The notes under the pieces are model-generated. The model saw only the letters and a program-made list of their open reading frames with translations, was not told the origin of the DNA and did not search any database. Of a DNA stretch of 19,396 nucleotides, positions 3,983-17,510 are shown in pieces. The translations under genes were made by a program, and so were the position numbers. Every line of letters starts with the position of its first letter. Position 1 is the first letter of the stretch. Source of the stretch: Verrucomicrobiota bacterium (lineage in GTDB: Bacteria; Verrucomicrobiota; Verrucomicrobiia; Chthoniobacterales; UBA10450); contig QHPM01000278.1 of assembly GCA_003219095.1 (NCBI GenBank), positions 1-19,396 of the forward strand. The letters run 5' to 3'.

Positions 3983-4978
3983 TTAGAGCCGTTCCGCCTT
4001 GGGATCGCGGCCAAGCAATTCCTGCATCGCAAAAAGGAGCGGCTTGCCCTGGTAGAGGACAGCGTAGATTTGATCGATGATCGGCGTTTCAACGCCGAGG
4101 CGACGCGCGCATTCGAACGCGCTTTTGGCCGTCGGTATTCCTTCCGCCACCATTTTCATATCTGCCTGGATCTGGGCCAGCGTTTCGGCGTGGCCCAGCC
4201 GTTCGCCTACCCCCCGATTGCGGCTGTGTTTGCTGAAGCAGGTCGCGATCAGATCGCCCACCCCGCTCAGTCCGTAGAAGGTGCGCGCGTTTCCACCCAT
4301 CCTTGTGCCGAGACGCAACAATTCGGCCATTGCGCGGGTGACGAGCGCGGCTTTTGAGTTGTCGCCAAGGCCAAGTCCGTCACTGACGCCGGCCGCAATC
4401 GCGAAAACATTCTTGAGCGCGCCGCCCAGCTCAATGCTGACCACATCGTCACTGGTGTAAATGCGAAAATGTTCGCTCCCGAGAAAGCGTTGCAACTCAA
4501 TCGCATAATTCTCGTTAGCACAGCCAATTACCGTCGCGGTCGGCAGGCCGCGAACAACCTCCAGCGCCAGATTTGGTCCGGACAAAACCGCTACCGAATT
4601 TGAAGGGAAGAGCGTTGACAAAATTTCGCTCATCCGCATTCCGCTGCCGTGCTCAATTCCTTTTGTGCAACTAAGCAGCACAGCACTTTCTTTGACAGCA
4701 GCGTCGCAGACAAGCGTGGCGATTTCGCGCAGGGCGGTGGATGGAGTGACGAAAACTATGAGATCGGCCTCAACGCAGTCGCTGAGCTCGTGCGTGGCCT
4801 GAATGTTGTCCGGCAATTGAACGCCCGGCAGATATTCCGTGTTCTCTCGCGAACTCTGCACCCGGCTGATGCGGGCGGCGTTGTTGCCCCAGAGCGAAAT
4901 GGGGCGGCCATCCTTCGCCCACAACGCCGCCAGGGCGGTCCCCCAGCTTCCACCACCGATGATGACCGTATTCTTCAT
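3983..4978 (-). CDS. gpsA: Glycerol-3-phosphate dehydrogenase [NAD(P)+]
   Basis: Reduces dihydroxyacetone phosphate to sn-glycerol 3-phosphate, the backbone precursor of phospholipids. The 331-residue length is normal. The Rossmann loop GGGSWGTA is at residues 8-15. The substrate-binding region GGALKNVFAIAAG carries the catalytic lysine (K189), followed by GLGDNSKAALVTRAMAE (203-219) and GLSGVGDLIATCFSKHSRN (236-254), all characteristic of GpsA. A mild oddity is SGPNLALEV (133-141), where many homologues have an SGPSxAxEV form. The ATG at 4978 overlaps the plsY stop as ATGA, so it is translationally coupled to the gene supplying the next step. It is the last gene of the six-gene minus-strand run. 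Confidence 0.96.
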   Translation of the reverse strand: MKNTVIIGGGSWGTALAALWAKDGRPISLWGNNAARISRVQSSRENTEYLPGVQLPDNIQATHELSDCVEADLIVFVTPSTALREIATLVCDAAVKESAVLLSCTKGIEHGSGMRMSEILSTLFPSNSVAVLSGPNLALEVVRGLPTATVIGCANENYAIELQRFLGSEHFRIYTSDDVVSIELGGALKNVFAIAAGVSDGLGLGDNSKAALVTRAMAELLRLGTRMGGNARTFYGLSGVGDLIATCFSKHSRNRGVGERLGHAETLAQIQADMKMVAEGIPTAKSAFECARRLGVETPIIDQIYAVLYQGKPLLFAMQELLGRDPKAERL

Positions 4979-5580
4979 TTTCGATCAAAGCGCGGCTCGC
5001 ACCCCTGGAGCAAGCGCACGATATTGCTGCGATGCCTGAAAATTATCAGAGCTGCGATCAATGCGCTAAATCCTAAAACGATTGGATCCACCGCATTTCC
5101 CAAGAGCCAGGCGCTAAGGGGCAAGGCAACCGCAGCTACGATGGAAGCTAACGAGACGAAGCGAAAAACGAAAAAGGTCGCAACCCATACAATAACAGCG
5201 ATGAACGTTGCCACCGGCAATAGTCCGAGGCAGGCGCCAGCGGCTGCGGCCACCCCTTTTCCACCGCGAAATCGAAGCCAGACAGGAAAGGAATGGCCGA
5301 CTACAACGAACAAAGCGGCAATGATTCCGATGAGGTAGCCGGTGGACGGGTCGAAGTGGGTGAGCCAAAGCGCAAATCGAACAGCAAGGAAACCTTTTAG
5401 AACATCGGCGACAAAAACGGCGTAACCATATTTCTTCCCGAGAACACGCAGCGTATTTGTTGCACCGATGTTGCCGCTGCCGTGCTGCCGGACATCAATG
5501 CCGGCGATTCGACCAGCGATGAAACCGAATGGGATGGATCCAAGAAGATAAGCAACCAGGGCCGCGGCGAAATAGATCAC
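4975..5580 (-). CDS. plsY: Acyl-phosphate:glycerol-3-phosphate acyltransferase
   Basis: Integral membrane enzyme that acylates glycerol 3-phosphate with acyl phosphate to give lysophosphatidic acid. Of 201 residues, all three conserved loops are present: GSIPFG at 14-19, GSGNIGATN at 34-42, and GHSFPVWLRFRGGKGVA at 95-111. They are separated by hydrophobic segments (about 1-22, 55-75, 80-97, 112-150 and 155-180) as expected for a multi-span PlsY. The start is GTG at 5580, directly abutting the mnmG stop (5581-5583). Its TGA overlaps the gpsA ATG. gpsA makes its substrate, so the pairing is functional as well as positional. Confidence 0.95.
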   Translation of the reverse strand: MIYFAAALVAYLLGSIPFGFIAGRIAGIDVRQHGSGNIGATNTLRVLGKKYGYAVFVADVLKGFLAVRFALWLTHFDPSTGYLIGIIAALFVVVGHSFPVWLRFRGGKGVAAAAGACLGLLPVATFIAVIVWVATFFVFRFVSLASIVAAVALPLSAWLLGNAVDPIVLGFSALIAALIIFRHRSNIVRLLQGCEPRFDRK

Positions 5581-7437
5581 TCAGAACGGTTTACCATTTA
5601 GCCAAATATCCAGGATAGATAAATCGGCGGCGGTTATTCCCGGGATGCGTCGTGCGGCTTCGAGCGAGGTTGGGCGAAACCTTCTCAGCTTTTGCCGGCT
5701 TTCGCTACGCAAGCCGGGAACAACGTTAAAGTTGAAGCCGACGGGGATAGTGCGGTCGGCGCGCGACTGTTCGTGGGTAACGCGCTTTGTTTGTTGAGCC
5801 AGGTATCCTGCGTATTTCATTTCAACGAGCAGATGGCGCCAGATTGAGTGAGGCGCCATGGCGAGCACCTCGGGCACCAGTTCACCCAGGTTGAAAAGCG
5901 GATCCTTCAGAGCTTGACGCAGAGGCCGACCATCAACTTGAATGCCGTCAATTGCGCCTTCGAGCGAAGCAATGGCCTTCCGTTTCCGACGGAGGCTATC
6001 CATTCGGTCCTTGCCGACTAACCCGATTCCTGCGCCCAACTCGGTCAAACGCAAATCCGCATTGTCTTCGCGGAGCGCCAGGCGGTTTTGCGCCCGACTG
6101 GTAAACATTCTATATGGCTCATCCGTTCCCCGCGTCGTCAGATCATCGATTAGAACGCCGATGTAACTGATTTTTTTCGGAAGCGTGAACGAATCGCGAT
6201 TTTGCGACTTTAAGGCGGCGTTAATTCCTGCAATCAAGCCTTGTCCGGCAGCTTCTTCGTAGCCGGAGGTGCCGTTAATCTGGCCGGCGAAATACAAGTT
6301 TTCCACGAGCTTCGTCTCGAGTGTTGGGTGGAGTTGGGTCGGCGGGAAATAATCGTACTCGACGGCATAGCCTGGCCGGATAATTTCAGCGCGCTCGAGT
6401 CCGGGAATGGACCGCACCAGCGATAGCTGGACGTCGAAGGGCAAACTGGTAGAGATACCATTGACGTAGACTTCGCTGGAATGGCGGCCTTCGGGCTCGA
6501 GGAAAATGGGGTGTGAGTCTTTATGGGAAAATCGGACAATTTTGTCCTCGATTGAGGGACAATAACGCGGCCCGGTGCCTTGAATCCTATTCTGATATAA
6601 TGGTGATCTATGGAGATTTGCACTAATTATTTCGTGAGTTTGGGGGGTAGTCTGCGTTAACCAACAGGGAAGCTGTTCCACGTGGAACAAACCCGATTCG
6701 TCGAAATTGAGCGTAAACGATTCGCCCTTCTCACGCGTCACCTTGTTTAGGAAAGAAAGCCGCTGTGCCGGCTCGTCCCCCTCTTGGGTCTCGAGTGAAC
6801 CGAAATCGATCGAATTACTATTTAGCCGACACGGCGTCCCAGTCTTAAAACGGCCCGCTTCGAATCCGAGGTCCCGAATGCTGTCGCTTAGTCCCGACGC
6901 GCTGTCGGCCATCCGGCCGCCAGGCTTGGATTGTTCGCCTACGTGCAACAGTCCCCGCAAAAATGTGCCAGCCGTGATCACGACCGATTTTGCCCGAATC
7001 TCAATCCCTAAATCCGTCGTCACGCCGAGGACTCTTCCATCAGCAACGACAAGCGTGCCCGCGCTCCCCTGCAACAATCGAAGATTCGGCGTCTTTTCGA
7101 GGATGGCCTTTAGCCGAAACTGATAGGCTTTCTTGTCACACTGGACCCGCGTCGCCCAGACCGCTTCGCCTTTGCTCCGGTTGAGCACGCGGAATTGAAT
7201 TCCGGTTGCGTCCGCATTAATTGCCATCGCGCCGCCCAGCGCATCTATTTCTTTGACAATATGACTCTTGGCCGACCCACCTATCGCCGGATTGCATGAC
7301 ATCTGGCCAATGGTATCCAGATTTTGTGTCAGCATTAGCGTGCGACAGCCAAGACGTGCTGCTGCCAAGGCGGCCTCGATCCCAGCGTGACCGCTGCCAA
7401 TAATCAGAACGTCTATCGGATCAGAGAGTATGAACAT
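5581..7437 (-). CDS. mnmG: tRNA U34 5-carboxymethylaminomethyl synthesis enzyme MnmG (GidA)
   Basis: FAD-dependent subunit of the MnmEG complex, which installs cmnm5U at the wobble position of certain tRNAs. The 618-residue length is standard. The FAD-binding GSGHAG is at residues 14-19, then the conserved [11 protein letters not shown] (44-54). Mid-protein [28 protein letters not shown] and [18 protein letters not shown] are family hallmarks, as is the C-terminal [10 protein letters not shown]. The ATG at 7437 lies 17 bp inside the 3' end of cdd. At residues 250-255 (LFHVEQ) the DNA is a perfect 16-bp parS palindrome, just before the conserved LPCW strand, so this codon run is under double constraint. 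mnmE and rsmG are not in the window. Confidence 0.97.
6674..6689. promoter_or_regulatory. parS centromere-like ParB-binding site inside mnmG
   Basis: The sequence TGTTCCACGTGGAACA is a perfect 16-bp palindrome and matches the chromosomal parS pattern TGTTNCACGTGNAACA at every fixed position. Chromosomal ParB/Spo0J proteins load onto such sites to form the partition complex, usually near the replication origin. It lies in the coding sequence of mnmG. parA and parB are not in the window. A 16-base exact match would be very unlikely by chance in 19 kb. Confidence 0.9.
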
Positions 7438-7831
7438 TTTTCAGAATTCCGCGCTTTGGATCCGGAAGAAGACGAGATAGATTCTCGATTTTGCGGTCGC
7501 CGCGTAACGTTGCGCTAACGATAATCAGATCCGGAGAAAATTCAGCCAGGAATTGCCGGCAAGCACCACAAGGCACAATCGGTTCGATCGTATCGGCAGC
7601 TACGGCGATCGCGACAAATTCCCGCTCTCCCGCCGCAACTGCGCTACCAATGGCGATTCGCTCCGCGCAAATCGTCAGGCCGTACGAGATATTTTCGATG
7701 TTGCTGCCGGCGAAGATGGCGCCCGATTTACATTGAACAGCCGCTCCAACGGCGAATCTAGAATATGGCGCATACGCTTTTAGGCGTCCCTTAATTGCGC
7801 TTTGAATTAAATTATCAAATTGCGTATCCAT
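7421..7831 (-). CDS. cdd: Cytidine deaminase
   Basis: Zinc enzyme that deaminates cytidine and deoxycytidine to uridine and deoxyuridine in pyrimidine salvage. The 136-residue length fits the small tetrameric class. The catalytic motif CAER (C55, E57) and the second zinc motif PCGACRQ (C88, C91) are both intact, as are the substrate-binding [12 protein letters not shown] (20-31) and [17 protein letters not shown] (42-58). It starts at an ATG at 7831, 20 bp after the TVP38-like gene stop, with an AT-rich leader and no clear Shine-Dalgarno sequence. Its 3' end overlaps mnmG by 17 bp in another frame. Confidence 0.95.
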
Positions 7832-8568: not shown

Positions 8569-10389
8569 TCACATCTCGCGCGCAAATCGGGCTAGCTCGC
8601 AGGTCGAATCGAAGTGTAGGAAAGGAGTAATCAAATAAATGCCGGGAAATTCTGAGCCGACCGCAAAGACGATCTCGCGCGCAATTTCCATTCCAGTAGC
8701 GGCGGCATTTTCGAGTGACGAATCTGCCATTCGCTTTCGGACGCCGTCGGGAACAATGATGCCCGGTACTTCGTGATGCAGGAACTCGGCCTGACGCGCG
8801 CTCATCAGCGGCCAAATACCAATGAAAATCGGGATGTTTAAGTGCGCCGTCCGCCGTTTTGTTTCTTCCACCAGGCGCGCGTCGAACACCGGCTGCGTCA
8901 TGGCAAATTGCGCGCCCGCGGCGACTTTGCGCTCGAGCCGGTTGACCTGCGAATCCAGACTTTTCGCGTTCGGATTGAAAGTGCAACCGATCACAAATTG
9001 CGTTCGCGCCTTGAGCGACTTGCCGGCGTGACTGAACCCCTCATTCATTTTTCCAATGATCGAAATCAATTCGATCGAGTTCACATCATAGACTGACGAC
9101 GCACCCGGATGATCGCCGACGCGGGCCGGATCGCCGGTCAGCGGGAGGACGTGACGCATGCCGAGCGCAGCCATGCCCAGCAGCTCGCTCTGCAAACCGA
9201 GCACGTTTTTGTCGCGACAACTCAAATGCAGGAGCGGAGTGATGCCAAATCGCTCTTTCAACATCGCGCCGACCGCGAGATTGCTGACGCGCAAAATCGC
9301 CAATGAGTTATCGGCCAGCGTGATCGCGTCGCAACCGGAGCGGACGAGTTCCTGCGCACCACGAAAGTATTTTTCCAGGGCGAGTGTCTTTGGCGGGTCG
9401 AGCTCGCAAATGATCACGCGTTTTCCGGCGGCGATTTTATCGAGCAAACTTTCTTCCGGGGCGGCGATCACGTTCTTTGCCGGCGGCGGCGTGACAGCGG
9501 TGACACGAACGGCCTTCGATTTCACTGGCTTCAGGTCCGCGATCGCCTTCGAAATCGCGGCGATCGTGCGCGGGTTTGTCCCGCAACAGCCGCCGATCAA
9601 CCGCGCGCCTTCGGCGACCATTTCGCGCGCGGCCTGCGCGAAGTAATCCGGCGCGGCGTGGTAGATAAAACGACCGTCCGTATATTTTGGATAACCGGCA
9701 TTGGGATAAGCCGCGAGCAATCCATCGAGGGGAATTCGCTGGAGCAGTTGCACAGTCGCGTGCGGACCGTTCATGCAATTTACGCCGGTAATTTGCACTC
9801 CCAGACCGCGAAGTTTGCGAAACGCATCAATAATTGGGACGCCCGACGCCAGTCGTCCTTCCGGTTCGCACGCAAAGGAGCAAATTGTTGTGCAATCGCT
9901 CAGCGACTTCTTAGCTTCCAGCGCAATCTGCATCTCGACGTCATCCATGAACGTCTCCAGAAAAATCAGGTCCACGCCCCCGTCGAGCAGTGCCTGGATC
10001 TGTTCGTGAAAACAGTGGGCGCGATCGATTCGGCGCTCGTCCGCTTCCAGCGCACTGATCCCAAGCGGCCCGACGCTACCGGCAACACAGACATCTTTTC
10101 CCGCGGTAGTCTCTTTCGCCAGCTTCGCCGCAGCGCGATTGAATTCGCCCACACGATCTTCGAAACCAAAACGAGAGAGCCGGGCTGCGTTCGCGCCGAA
10201 GGTGTTTGTCTCAATCACACGGGCACCGGCTGCAATGTAATCGCGATGAATCGCACGCACCCGATCCGGGTCACTTACGCAAACTTCCTCGAGACAAGAC
10301 TCCATCGGCAGACCCTGATCGAGCAGGAGGGTTCCCATCGCGCCGTCGCCGCAGACGATACGTTCCTGAAGCTCATCGAGGAGGTTCAT
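8569..10389 (-). CDS. Bifunctional homocysteine S-methyltransferase / 5,10-methylenetetrahydrofolate reductase
   Basis: A 606-residue fusion. Residues about 1-290 are a zinc-dependent homocysteine S-methyltransferase, with GDGAMGTLL at the N-terminus, the first zinc cysteine in GVNCMNGP (C205) and the second motif GGCCGT (C268, C269). Residues about 320-606 are an MTHFR barrel, starting with IICELDPPKT and containing LPLTGDPARVGDHPG and CTFNPNAKSLDSQVNRLERKV-type sequence, which reduces methylene-THF with a flavin. The same fusion is known from Bacillus YitJ and links methyl-group generation to methionine synthesis. Start ATG is at 10389. No SAM riboswitch is recognisable in the 120 bp upstream, and the Shine-Dalgarno sequence is weak. 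First gene of the six-gene minus-strand run. Confidence 0.95.
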   Translation of the reverse strand: MNLLDELQERIVCGDGAMGTLLLDQGLPMESCLEEVCVSDPDRVRAIHRDYIAAGARVIETNTFGANAARLSRFGFEDRVGEFNRAAAKLAKETTAGKDVCVAGSVGPLGISALEADERRIDRAHCFHEQIQALLDGGVDLIFLETFMDDVEMQIALEAKKSLSDCTTICSFACEPEGRLASGVPIIDAFRKLRGLGVQITGVNCMNGPHATVQLLQRIPLDGLLAAYPNAGYPKYTDGRFIYHAAPDYFAQAAREMVAEGARLIGGCCGTNPRTIAAISKAIADLKPVKSKAVRVTAVTPPPAKNVIAAPEESLLDKIAAGKRVIICELDPPKTLALEKYFRGAQELVRSGCDAITLADNSLAILRVSNLAVGAMLKERFGITPLLHLSCRDKNVLGLQSELLGMAALGMRHVLPLTGDPARVGDHPGASSVYDVNSIELISIIGKMNEGFSHAGKSLKARTQFVIGCTFNPNAKSLDSQVNRLERKVAAGAQFAMTQPVFDARLVEETKRRTAHLNIPIFIGIWPLMSARQAEFLHHEVPGIIVPDGVRKRMADSSLENAAATGMEIAREIVFAVGSEFPGIYLITPFLHFDSTCELARFAREM

Positions 10390-15947: not shown

Positions 15948-17510
15948 ATGATGAGCCGATCCAAAGCAGCGCTTTGCGGTCTCCTCGCCGGTCTGGTTGC
16001 CGGAATCGCCATGACATTGGTGATGCTTTTGCTGGCGTGGATCTTTCAAATTGCGACTCCGCTGGTGATCCTGGGCGATCGCCTCAGCGTTTTCATTTCA
16101 CCGAAACCGTTCTTTTGGATCATGGGCCGCGTCGGCGGCTACAACCATTTGAAACAGCTCGGCGTCAGTTCCTCGATGTTCGGCCAAATCCTGCTCGGCG
16201 CGATGGGCGGGATGGTTTATGGGCTCATTCTTCGCAAACGCCAGCGCATTGAGTATCGCTGGAGCTTTCTCATTTTCGTGGCGCTGCCGTTAGTGGTTAG
16301 TGCCGTTCTGCTCTGGCCGGTACTCGGGACCCATTACGGGGGAATGCCAATCGACGCGGCGCGTTTGATCACGCTGCTGGGACTGGCGATTTCGTTTCTC
16401 TTCTTCGAACGCACCCTTGTGCTTGGTTTTGCTTTTCTAACGAGTCGTGGGCCAGCGAAGACCCCGGGCCCTCCTGAATTTACGCCGCACCTGGACCGGC
16501 GCGCATTTTTATTGGGAACGCTGGGCCTTCTCCTTGCGGGCGGAGGCGCCGCCATCGCGCGCAAACTCTTTCGCATCGCGACCTTCAGCTATGACGGCAC
16601 GCAATACAAAGGCGCGGGCCTCCAGGCGATTACCCCGAACGAGCAGTTCTATTGCGTGACTAAGAACGTAGTCGATCCGAGGGTGGACGGAGGCCTCTGG
16701 CATCTCGAAGTGACCGGCCTGGTACGCCATCCACACACCTACCGGCTGCTGGATTTCAAGACTATGGAGATGGTCGATCAGGAAACGACTTTAATGTGCA
16801 TCAGTAACGGACTCGACGCCGGACTGATGAGTAACGCAGTTTGGCGCGGGATCCCGATGGCAGATTTGTTGGAGGCAGCCTCTCCACTTCCCGGCGCGGA
16901 AAGAGTGCGGCTGCACGGCGTTGATAACTACACCGACACGGTTCCGTTCCAGAAAGCAATGGACCCGGCCACGCTGGTCGCCTTGATGATGAATGGAGTG
17001 AAGTTACCGGATCGACACGGCTTTCCCGCCCGCGCCATCGTGCCCGGTTATTTCGGCGAAAAACATGTGAAATGGCTCACTCGCATCGAAGTGACGAAAG
17101 CAGACGCGAAGGGTTTCTACGAGGCCCAGGGCTGGGGTCCGAATTTCATCGTTCCCACGCGCTCGCGCATCGACGTTCCTTATAACGAATCGTGGATTAA
17201 GTTGGCTGATGCGGCGAAGGGCATTCCGGTCAAAGGCGTCGCTTACGGCGGGGCACGAGGAATCTCCCGGGTGGAATTCAGTGCGGACGACGGCGAAAGT
17301 TGGGATGACGCTCAGATCGATTATCCGGGCACCAAATTAACCTGGGCGCTCTGGAGTTTTAACTGGGAGCCGGAAGATGGCGACGATTACACGCTGGTTG
17401 TGCGTGCGGCCGATGGCGAAGGCAAAGTACAGGAATTCGAAGAGAACCGTGCATTTACTTCCGGGATCACCGGTTTTCACAAGATTGTCGTTCACATTTT
17501 TGCTCATTGA
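15948..17510 (+). CDS. Membrane-anchored molybdopterin-dependent oxidoreductase (sulfite oxidase-fold)
   Basis: A 520-residue protein. Residues 1-165 contain four or five hydrophobic segments (about 8-36, 75-95, 105-125, 138-165). A linker follows, then DRRAFLLGTLGLLLAGGGAA (183-202), a twin-arginine-like second export element. Residues about 225-395 are the oxidoreductase molybdopterin domain: GLWHLEVTGLV, TTLMCISNGLD with the probable molybdenum-ligand cysteine C284, and GFPARAIVPGYFGEKHVKWLTRI. Residues about 400-520 form the C-terminal beta-sandwich dimerisation-type domain, with a GGARGISRVEFSADDGESW strand pair. The substrate is unknown; a sulfite or protein-methionine-sulfoxide-like oxidoreduction is possible. 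ATG 15948 is followed at once by a second ATG. Confidence 0.9.
   Translation: MMSRSKAALCGLLAGLVAGIAMTLVMLLLAWIFQIATPLVILGDRLSVFISPKPFFWIMGRVGGYNHLKQLGVSSSMFGQILLGAMGGMVYGLILRKRQRIEYRWSFLIFVALPLVVSAVLLWPVLGTHYGGMPIDAARLITLLGLAISFLFFERTLVLGFAFLTSRGPAKTPGPPEFTPHLDRRAFLLGTLGLLLAGGGAAIARKLFRIATFSYDGTQYKGAGLQAITPNEQFYCVTKNVVDPRVDGGLWHLEVTGLVRHPHTYRLLDFKTMEMVDQETTLMCISNGLDAGLMSNAVWRGIPMADLLEAASPLPGAERVRLHGVDNYTDTVPFQKAMDPATLVALMMNGVKLPDRHGFPARAIVPGYFGEKHVKWLTRIEVTKADAKGFYEAQGWGPNFIVPTRSRIDVPYNESWIKLADAAKGIPVKGVAYGGARGISRVEFSADDGESWDDAQIDYPGTKLTWALWSFNWEPEDGDDYTLVVRAADGEGKVQEFEENRAFTSGITGFHKIVVHIFAH

Follow-up and report, generated by a model that had tools for sequence, protein, structure and literature searches.

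A putative chromosomal parS site carried within the mnmG coding sequence of Verrucomicrobiota

Background

Can a chromosomal centromere be housed in the coding sequence of a conserved enzyme? The question is raised by a palindrome of the parS type in the mnmG (gidA) gene of a Verrucomicrobiota bacterium (Verrucomicrobiia, Chthoniobacterales, UBA10450). The window analyzed here is the whole 19,396-nt stretch of contig QHPM01000278.1 (assembly GCA_003219095.1), and the site was compared across the source genome, the genus, the order, the phylum and a set of genomes from other phyla.

Results and discussion

The palindrome and its host gene

A motif scan of the whole window found the exact 16-bp palindrome TGTTCCACGTGGAACA once, within the mnmG coding sequence as originally predicted (Table 1), and this is the sole match in the window even at up to three mismatches. 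In 200 shuffled windows, the mean number of such loose matches was 0.10, with at least one match in 17; a perfect match is far rarer. A published parS survey (PMC10197239), in the excerpt available, used TGTTTCACGTGAAACA with two mismatches allowed. The window site is two mismatches from this sequence, within the parS consensus as excerpted.

Table 1. Features of the window around the candidate parS site
Feature	Position	Strand	Basis or remark
gpsA-type glycerol-3-phosphate dehydrogenase	3983..4978	-	3' of plsY
plsY	4975..5580	-	directly 3' of mnmG
mnmG (gidA), tRNA uridine-34 modification enzyme, parS host	5581..7437	-	TIGR00136, 771.6 bits
mnmG codons 251–255, encoding FHVEQ	6673..6687	-	constrained as DNA; codons for F, V and E almost invariant, those for H and Q more variable
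parS, perfect 16-bp palindrome TGTTCCACGTGGAACA	6674..6689	none	motif scan and base-wise conservation in 82 relatives
parS core GTTCCACGTGGAAC	6675..6688		inside TGTTCCACGTGGAACA
mnmG residues 235–250, insert absent from E. coli MnmG	6688..6735	-	pairwise alignment to 3cp2
cdd, cytidine deaminase	7421..7831	-	overlaps mnmG start

On the minus strand the site reads as L250 (TTG), F251 (TTC), H252 (CAC), V253 (GTG), E254 (GAA) and Q255 (CAG). In an AlphaFold2 model of MnmG (26-row alignment A1, mean pLDDT 86.2), residues 245–247 and 250–252 form two short strands, and the peptide encoded by parS may therefore belong to a small hairpin. The MnmG proteins of isolates AV101, AV106 and AV114 are 89–90% identical to that of the window, and the host is probably a soil Verrucomicrobium. 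Elsewhere, the window encodes a bifunctional homocysteine S-methyltransferase/methylenetetrahydrofolate reductase (8569–10389; NF006396, 743.6 bits) and a molybdopterin oxidoreductase (15948–17510; Pfam PF00174 and PF03404) whose extra N-terminal segment was judged by eye as probably membrane-bound.

The source genome (G000) is a draft of 2.38 Mb in 377 contigs, 74.4% complete, and its missing part could hold further parS sites. A scan for the 16-mer and its variants, which had been proposed as a check, returned a single copy at up to two mismatches, the one inside mnmG; the reversed control pattern likewise gave one match. Because the assembly is incomplete, this count leaves uniqueness in the source genome unproven.

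Conservation of the site at the DNA level

Within the order, 111 of 117 genomes (the source genome included) had a match to mnmG, and 90 mnmG genes were fetched and aligned. The 16-mer was found at up to one mismatch in 94 of the 117 genomes, mostly in one or two copies and at most in five, as against three genomes for the reversed control pattern. At the homologous place in the 90 genes there were no mismatches in 16, one in 48, two in 17 and three in one. The remaining eight genes, six from family f7 and two from family f8, had 4–8 mismatches and were dropped from the codon test, which used 82 rows. Loose matches can arise by chance, as they did in the shuffled windows, but a chance palindrome is ruled out as virtually impossible by a match that is perfect, that has a counterpart at the homologous position of 82 of 90 relatives (up to three mismatches) and that extends through the phylum.

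The codons under the site show little variation. F251 is TTC in all 82 rows, V253 is GTG in 81 of 82, and E254 is GAA in 81 of 81, the remaining row having a lysine. Histidine 252, present in 79 rows, is encoded by CAC in 61 of them and by CAT in 18, a change that spoils the symmetry of the palindrome in many relatives; for Q255, 68 rows have CAA and 14 have CAG. No other of the 249 conserved degenerate columns is as invariant as those of F251, E254 and V253. On a tree built without the site, F251 and E254 had no changes and V253 had one, while the remaining conserved columns for these three amino acids had 16–38; H252 had 15 (19–23 in other H columns) and Q255 had 12 (19–26 in other Q columns). 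Residue 250 is free, with 14 different amino acids, yet the third base of its codon is G in 76 of 82 rows (93%); across 57 columns of comparable variability, the commonest third base reached 62% at most. Base by base, position 1 of the 16-mer varies freely, with T in 27 of 82 rows, and position 8 has C in 63 of them; the conserved unit is therefore approximately the 14-bp core plus A16.

By codon columns, by changes on the tree and by residue 250, the DNA is conserved beyond what coding needs, which indicates that selection is acting on the DNA of the site in addition to the protein. The original prediction had claimed a dual constraint, by protein and by centromere. The frozen F, V and E codons and the third base of residue 250 bear this out, and the comparison of the same codons in mnmG of relatives, also suggested there, found the parS codons kept. 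The pattern that would speak against such a constraint, FHV.Q retained with decayed parS codons, was seen among the 90 aligned genes in only two 0.9-Mb genomes without a detected ParB.

These two genomes (G079 and G088, family f8) are single contigs and 99% complete. They keep FHVKQ and FHVRQ, while the 16-mer shows four and six mismatches, and a ParB search of both genomes detected none. A member of the same genus, G095, has ParB and a perfect site. The pair may represent genome reduction accompanied by loss of the partition protein. The genus also has members of 1.9 and 2.5 Mb. Family f7 shows another kind of loss: ParB is present, the mnmG site is gone and the peptide is mostly gone as well. 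Four of the six f7 genomes have the motif elsewhere at up to one mismatch, and two have none. By the translations, named by eye, this motif has cdd- and msrA-like frames nearby in G102 and G087; in G078 and G094 the neighboring frames resemble secA. The losses in f8 and f7 thus suggest that the codon constraint vanishes once ParB, or the role of the place, vanishes.

Could MnmG simply need the peptide, with the palindrome a mere by-product? FHVEQ is found in 78 of the 90 order-level genes, Q255 is invariant in alignment A1, and the model places residues 250–252 in a beta strand. A need for the peptide is contradicted, however, by the nearly frozen F, V and E codons, by the G that ends the codon of a free residue, by other families that read CSTWN or VPRGT off the same DNA, and by the drifting codons under a persistent FHV.Q in the two genomes without a ParB match. 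The synonymous data refute it as the sole cause, which makes this explanation highly improbable, though a need for the peptide may act in addition to selection on the DNA.

ParB and the distribution of the site in the phylum

The source genome encodes one protein with a ParB_N match (G000:C115, locus L002; 98.7 bits), of the chromosomal type and on a contig other than that of mnmG, so the chromosomal parB gene whose absence would have counted against the site is present. Aligned to Caulobacter ParB, the protein carries the equivalents of both parS-reading residues, R173 and G201, which qualifies it as the cognate ParB of the same genome. Both residues are described as absolutely conserved among ParB orthologues in the excerpted text of PMC7383237. 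The reading frame of L002 opens after an in-contig TAG stop and is without approximately 60 N-terminal residues of the ParB of relatives; a frameshift or an assembly fault may be the cause. The original prediction also placed the window in the origin-proximal partition region of a chromosome. A linked parAB is unsupported: parB is 124 kb from mnmG in one relative (G074) and approximately half a chromosome away in another (G201).

In the phylum set of 144 genomes, 138 had a match to mnmG and 110 mnmG genes were examined, with the frame taken from the previous stop. Genomes were considered ParB-positive if their best ParB_N match was below 1e-20. An in-frame site at up to one mismatch was found in 78 of 88 ParB-positive genes (72 with an exact copy) versus one of 22 others; ten ParB-positive genes had no such site. 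Six of the 22 other genomes had weak ParB_N matches (1e-6 to 1e-11), which were taken as other ParB-like proteins. If any ParB_N match is counted as positive, the figures become 78 of 94 versus one of 16. G188 is the sole ParB-negative genome with the site. It belongs to family f17, the other 13 examined members of which are ParB-positive, and its parB may be absent from the draft assembly only.

The contrast between ParB and site is weak evidence because ParB losses are few and clustered. ParB status changes four times on the tree, and most ParB-negative genes form one clade. In four independent pairs differing in ParB, the site differs likewise in one and not at all in three. A Fisher test of ParB against the loop site (68/20 vs 1/21, p 2.5e-10) was set aside as evidence, given the few ParB changes on the tree.

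The site has a preferred seat in the protein. In 68 of the 88 ParB-positive genes it falls in the loop bounded by the KTGTP and PCW motifs, while 10 of the 15 members of family f15 have it near codon 547–556 instead. Loops bearing parS are 58–127 aa long. The loops of the 22 non-ParB-positive genes are 46–51 aa, except for three of 60–61 aa (two f8 genomes and G188). ParB-positive genes without a loop site have loops mostly of 60–63 aa, plus one each of 50, 98 and 271 aa, and loop length therefore fails as a sole separator of the ParB groups. Of 116 sites in the phylum, 96 are read as FHVE, 10 as CSTWN and 10 as VPRGT, and 33 of the genes hold two or three copies. On this sequence evidence, three frames and multiple copies are hard to explain by the protein. 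The alignments also indicate more than was originally predicted, namely that the site is phylum-wide and usually seated in an enlarged MnmG loop.

A scan of named genomes used a pattern that favored the FHV[EK]Q frame and mnmG-like spacing. Among the matches listed (80 loci), 53 have the site in mnmG, 51 of them titled as Verrucomicrobiota or its groups, one as 'PVC group' and one as 'Betaproteobacteria'; given the bias of the pattern and a count taken on the matches listed, this distribution across phyla is a biased sample. The 'Betaproteobacteria bacterium' (L185/G282) has an mnmG of the Verrucomicrobiota type with a parS in the loop (MnmG 56% identical), and the record is probably misnamed.

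Additional sites in and near mnmG

Of the 90 aligned relatives, 28 have a second parS (up to two mismatches) 5' of the mnmG start. The distance to the start is mostly 14–113 bp, and 0.45–1.3 kb in three cases. The window and its genus have no second parS before the mnmG start. Among the sites listed, the second parS overlaps the first base of the start codon in L070, L071, L074, L076, L080, L085, L088, L094, L099 and L103. A role for this copy as a ribosome-binding site was considered and dropped, as its GGAA is just one base from the ATG.

In family f2, both copies in each of two genomes (L010 in G073, L117 in G083) share the same unusual base change and look as if they had been changed together. 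A ParB search of G073 found none. In family f12, three genes (L108, L110 and L111) have an extra parS-like site with two mismatches near codon 416–426, in addition to the parS near codon 250–260.

The palindrome might instead serve another protein, such as a CACGTG-binding regulator, or act mainly in controlling mnmG expression through ParB. In the ten relatives just listed, the second copy shares its last base with the mnmG start codon (the A of ATG), a position at which binding could influence expression. This explanation is nevertheless very unlikely. The sequence fits the parS consensus of the excerpted survey, 21 of the 22 genes from genomes lacking a strong ParB match do not have the site (though these represent few lineages), there are usually one to three copies at one genomic place, and copies occur in three frames and, in some relatives, outside mnmG.

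Copy number and position on whole chromosomes

The 16-mer was sought at up to one mismatch in 27 genomes, some of them complete, and was found in 24; G020, G110 and G115 have none anywhere at this threshold. Seven have exactly one copy, in mnmG: G201, G133, G235, G212, G156 and G185, each a single contig, and G234, in two contigs. All copies are in mnmG in G240 (two) and G194 (three), and the second copy is approximately 1.7 kb or less from the first in G191, G204 and G252. In family f15, the second copy is 4.6–5.7 kb away in G136, G148 and G226, and G121 and G165 have two and three copies, none of them in mnmG. A search of 20 of these genomes for the other type of parS, TGTTTCACGTGAAACA, with one mismatch allowed, found none. 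The site is thus few in number and clustered, with one copy in the source genome and one to three in the complete relatives that have any.

These counts bear on a further alternative, that the site is a true but minor parS and the main centromere is in the missing part of the source genome. The assembly is only 74.4% complete and some relatives have two to five sites. Against this, all 11 genomes searched within the genus, the source genome included, have one copy at up to one mismatch (drafts 76–96% complete, the source genome 74%), and six single-contig genomes of the same class have their single site in mnmG. A minor role is therefore unlikely. Judging by its relatives, the mnmG parS is likely to be the main centromere of the organism represented by the window, and across most of the phylum it probably serves as the main centromere or the sole one.

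GC skew, which bears on the origin-proximal place originally predicted, was clear in one of the four genomes sampled, G201 (4.73 Mb, single contig C1). Sampled skew was negative at 0.1–2.09 Mb and positive at 2.1–4.2 Mb, and the switch of sign places an origin-type turn at ca. 2.05–2.10 Mb, near mnmG at 2.15 Mb. The dnaA gene (position 31) and parB (4.68 Mb) are both on the terminus side. In G133, the skew turns somewhere in the stretch from 3.3 Mb to the end of its 4.32-Mb record, a coarse placement, with mnmG at 4.24 Mb and dnaA at 2.29 Mb. In G191, a coarse turn is at ca. 0.85–0.93 Mb, with mnmG at 1.03 Mb and dnaA at 1.06 Mb. The skew of G212 is too weak to place the origin. The M. infernorum origin has been placed 250 nt from dnaA, according to the excerpted text of PMC2474590.

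Comparison with other phyla and known systems

A set of 26 genomes titled as other phyla, all chosen for holding the parS motif, gave 17 with a match to MnmG. In 11 of the 17, a site at up to two mismatches lay no more than ca. 60 bp from one end of the mnmG frame or the other, a share that is biased because the genomes were picked for holding the motif. A site inside the gene beyond the first ca. 15 codons was found in none of these 17 motif-selected genomes. The length from motif to motif was 47–48 aa in eight of ten genomes and 57 and 59 aa in the other two; the same measure is 65 aa in L381, a gene of the Verrucomicrobiota type. The Verrucomicrobiota site thus shares its gene neighborhood with the parS sites that flank mnmG in other phyla, but unlike them it is within the gene, in a longer loop. 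Of the two arrangements, the one with parS next to the gene looks the older on these sequences.

The site resembles the chromosomal parS of Bacillus subtilis, Caulobacter and Pseudomonas in being a 16-bp palindrome of the same consensus, with a ParB gene and few copies, and in being near the origin in G201, the one relative with clear skew. It differs from chromosomal ParABS sites in being inside mnmG, unlinked to parB and, in several chromosomes, the sole copy found. Noc is a relative of ParB that binds palindromic sites (NBS) and acts in nucleoid occlusion. NBS sites are likewise palindromic and bound by a related protein family, but the one ParB_N protein of the source genome has the ParB-type residues R and G rather than the Q173/R201 equivalents of Noc.

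Sites inside genes have precedents in B. subtilis and Caulobacter, including parS-359 within parB of B. subtilis, according to excerpts of the published accounts. Among the literature matches listed, drawn mainly from open papers, none describes a phylum-wide seat of parS in one enlarged protein loop. The parS survey of Livny et al. 2007 reportedly may list single mnmG sites. With parS in genes already known, the new part would be that a single enlarged loop of one enzyme houses it across a phylum.

Conclusions

The 16-mer is very probably a functional chromosomal ParB-loading site carried within the mnmG coding sequence, a reading for which codon-level conservation, the ParB of the source genome and copy number all argue. 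By analogy with known ParABS systems, we infer ParB binding, clamp loading and segregation at the site. On binding the palindrome, ParB dimers would load CTP, close into clamps and move by sliding to adjacent DNA; the complex seeded in mnmG would then be moved by ParA and would recruit SMC. The gene would be transcribed and translated through parS, giving a normal enzyme with a small hairpin that bears FHVEQ.

A broader history is also favored, with somewhat less confidence. In most Verrucomicrobiota, the centromere may have been taken into mnmG, where the loop would have lengthened to accommodate parS in one to three copies and in any frame; as the main or only parS, it would have kept its place at the origin as parB, and even dnaA, relocated. 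Absorbed into mnmG and kept at the origin, the centromere and the enzyme gene would on this account have become one indivisible element.

If true, this would provide an annotatable centromere for a whole, little-studied phylum, and an origin marker superior to dnaA in at least some members, such as G201 with its dnaA on the terminus side. It would also be a case of centromere DNA moulding a conserved enzyme, in which one synonymous recoding could delete the only detected parS of a chromosome and leave the protein unchanged.
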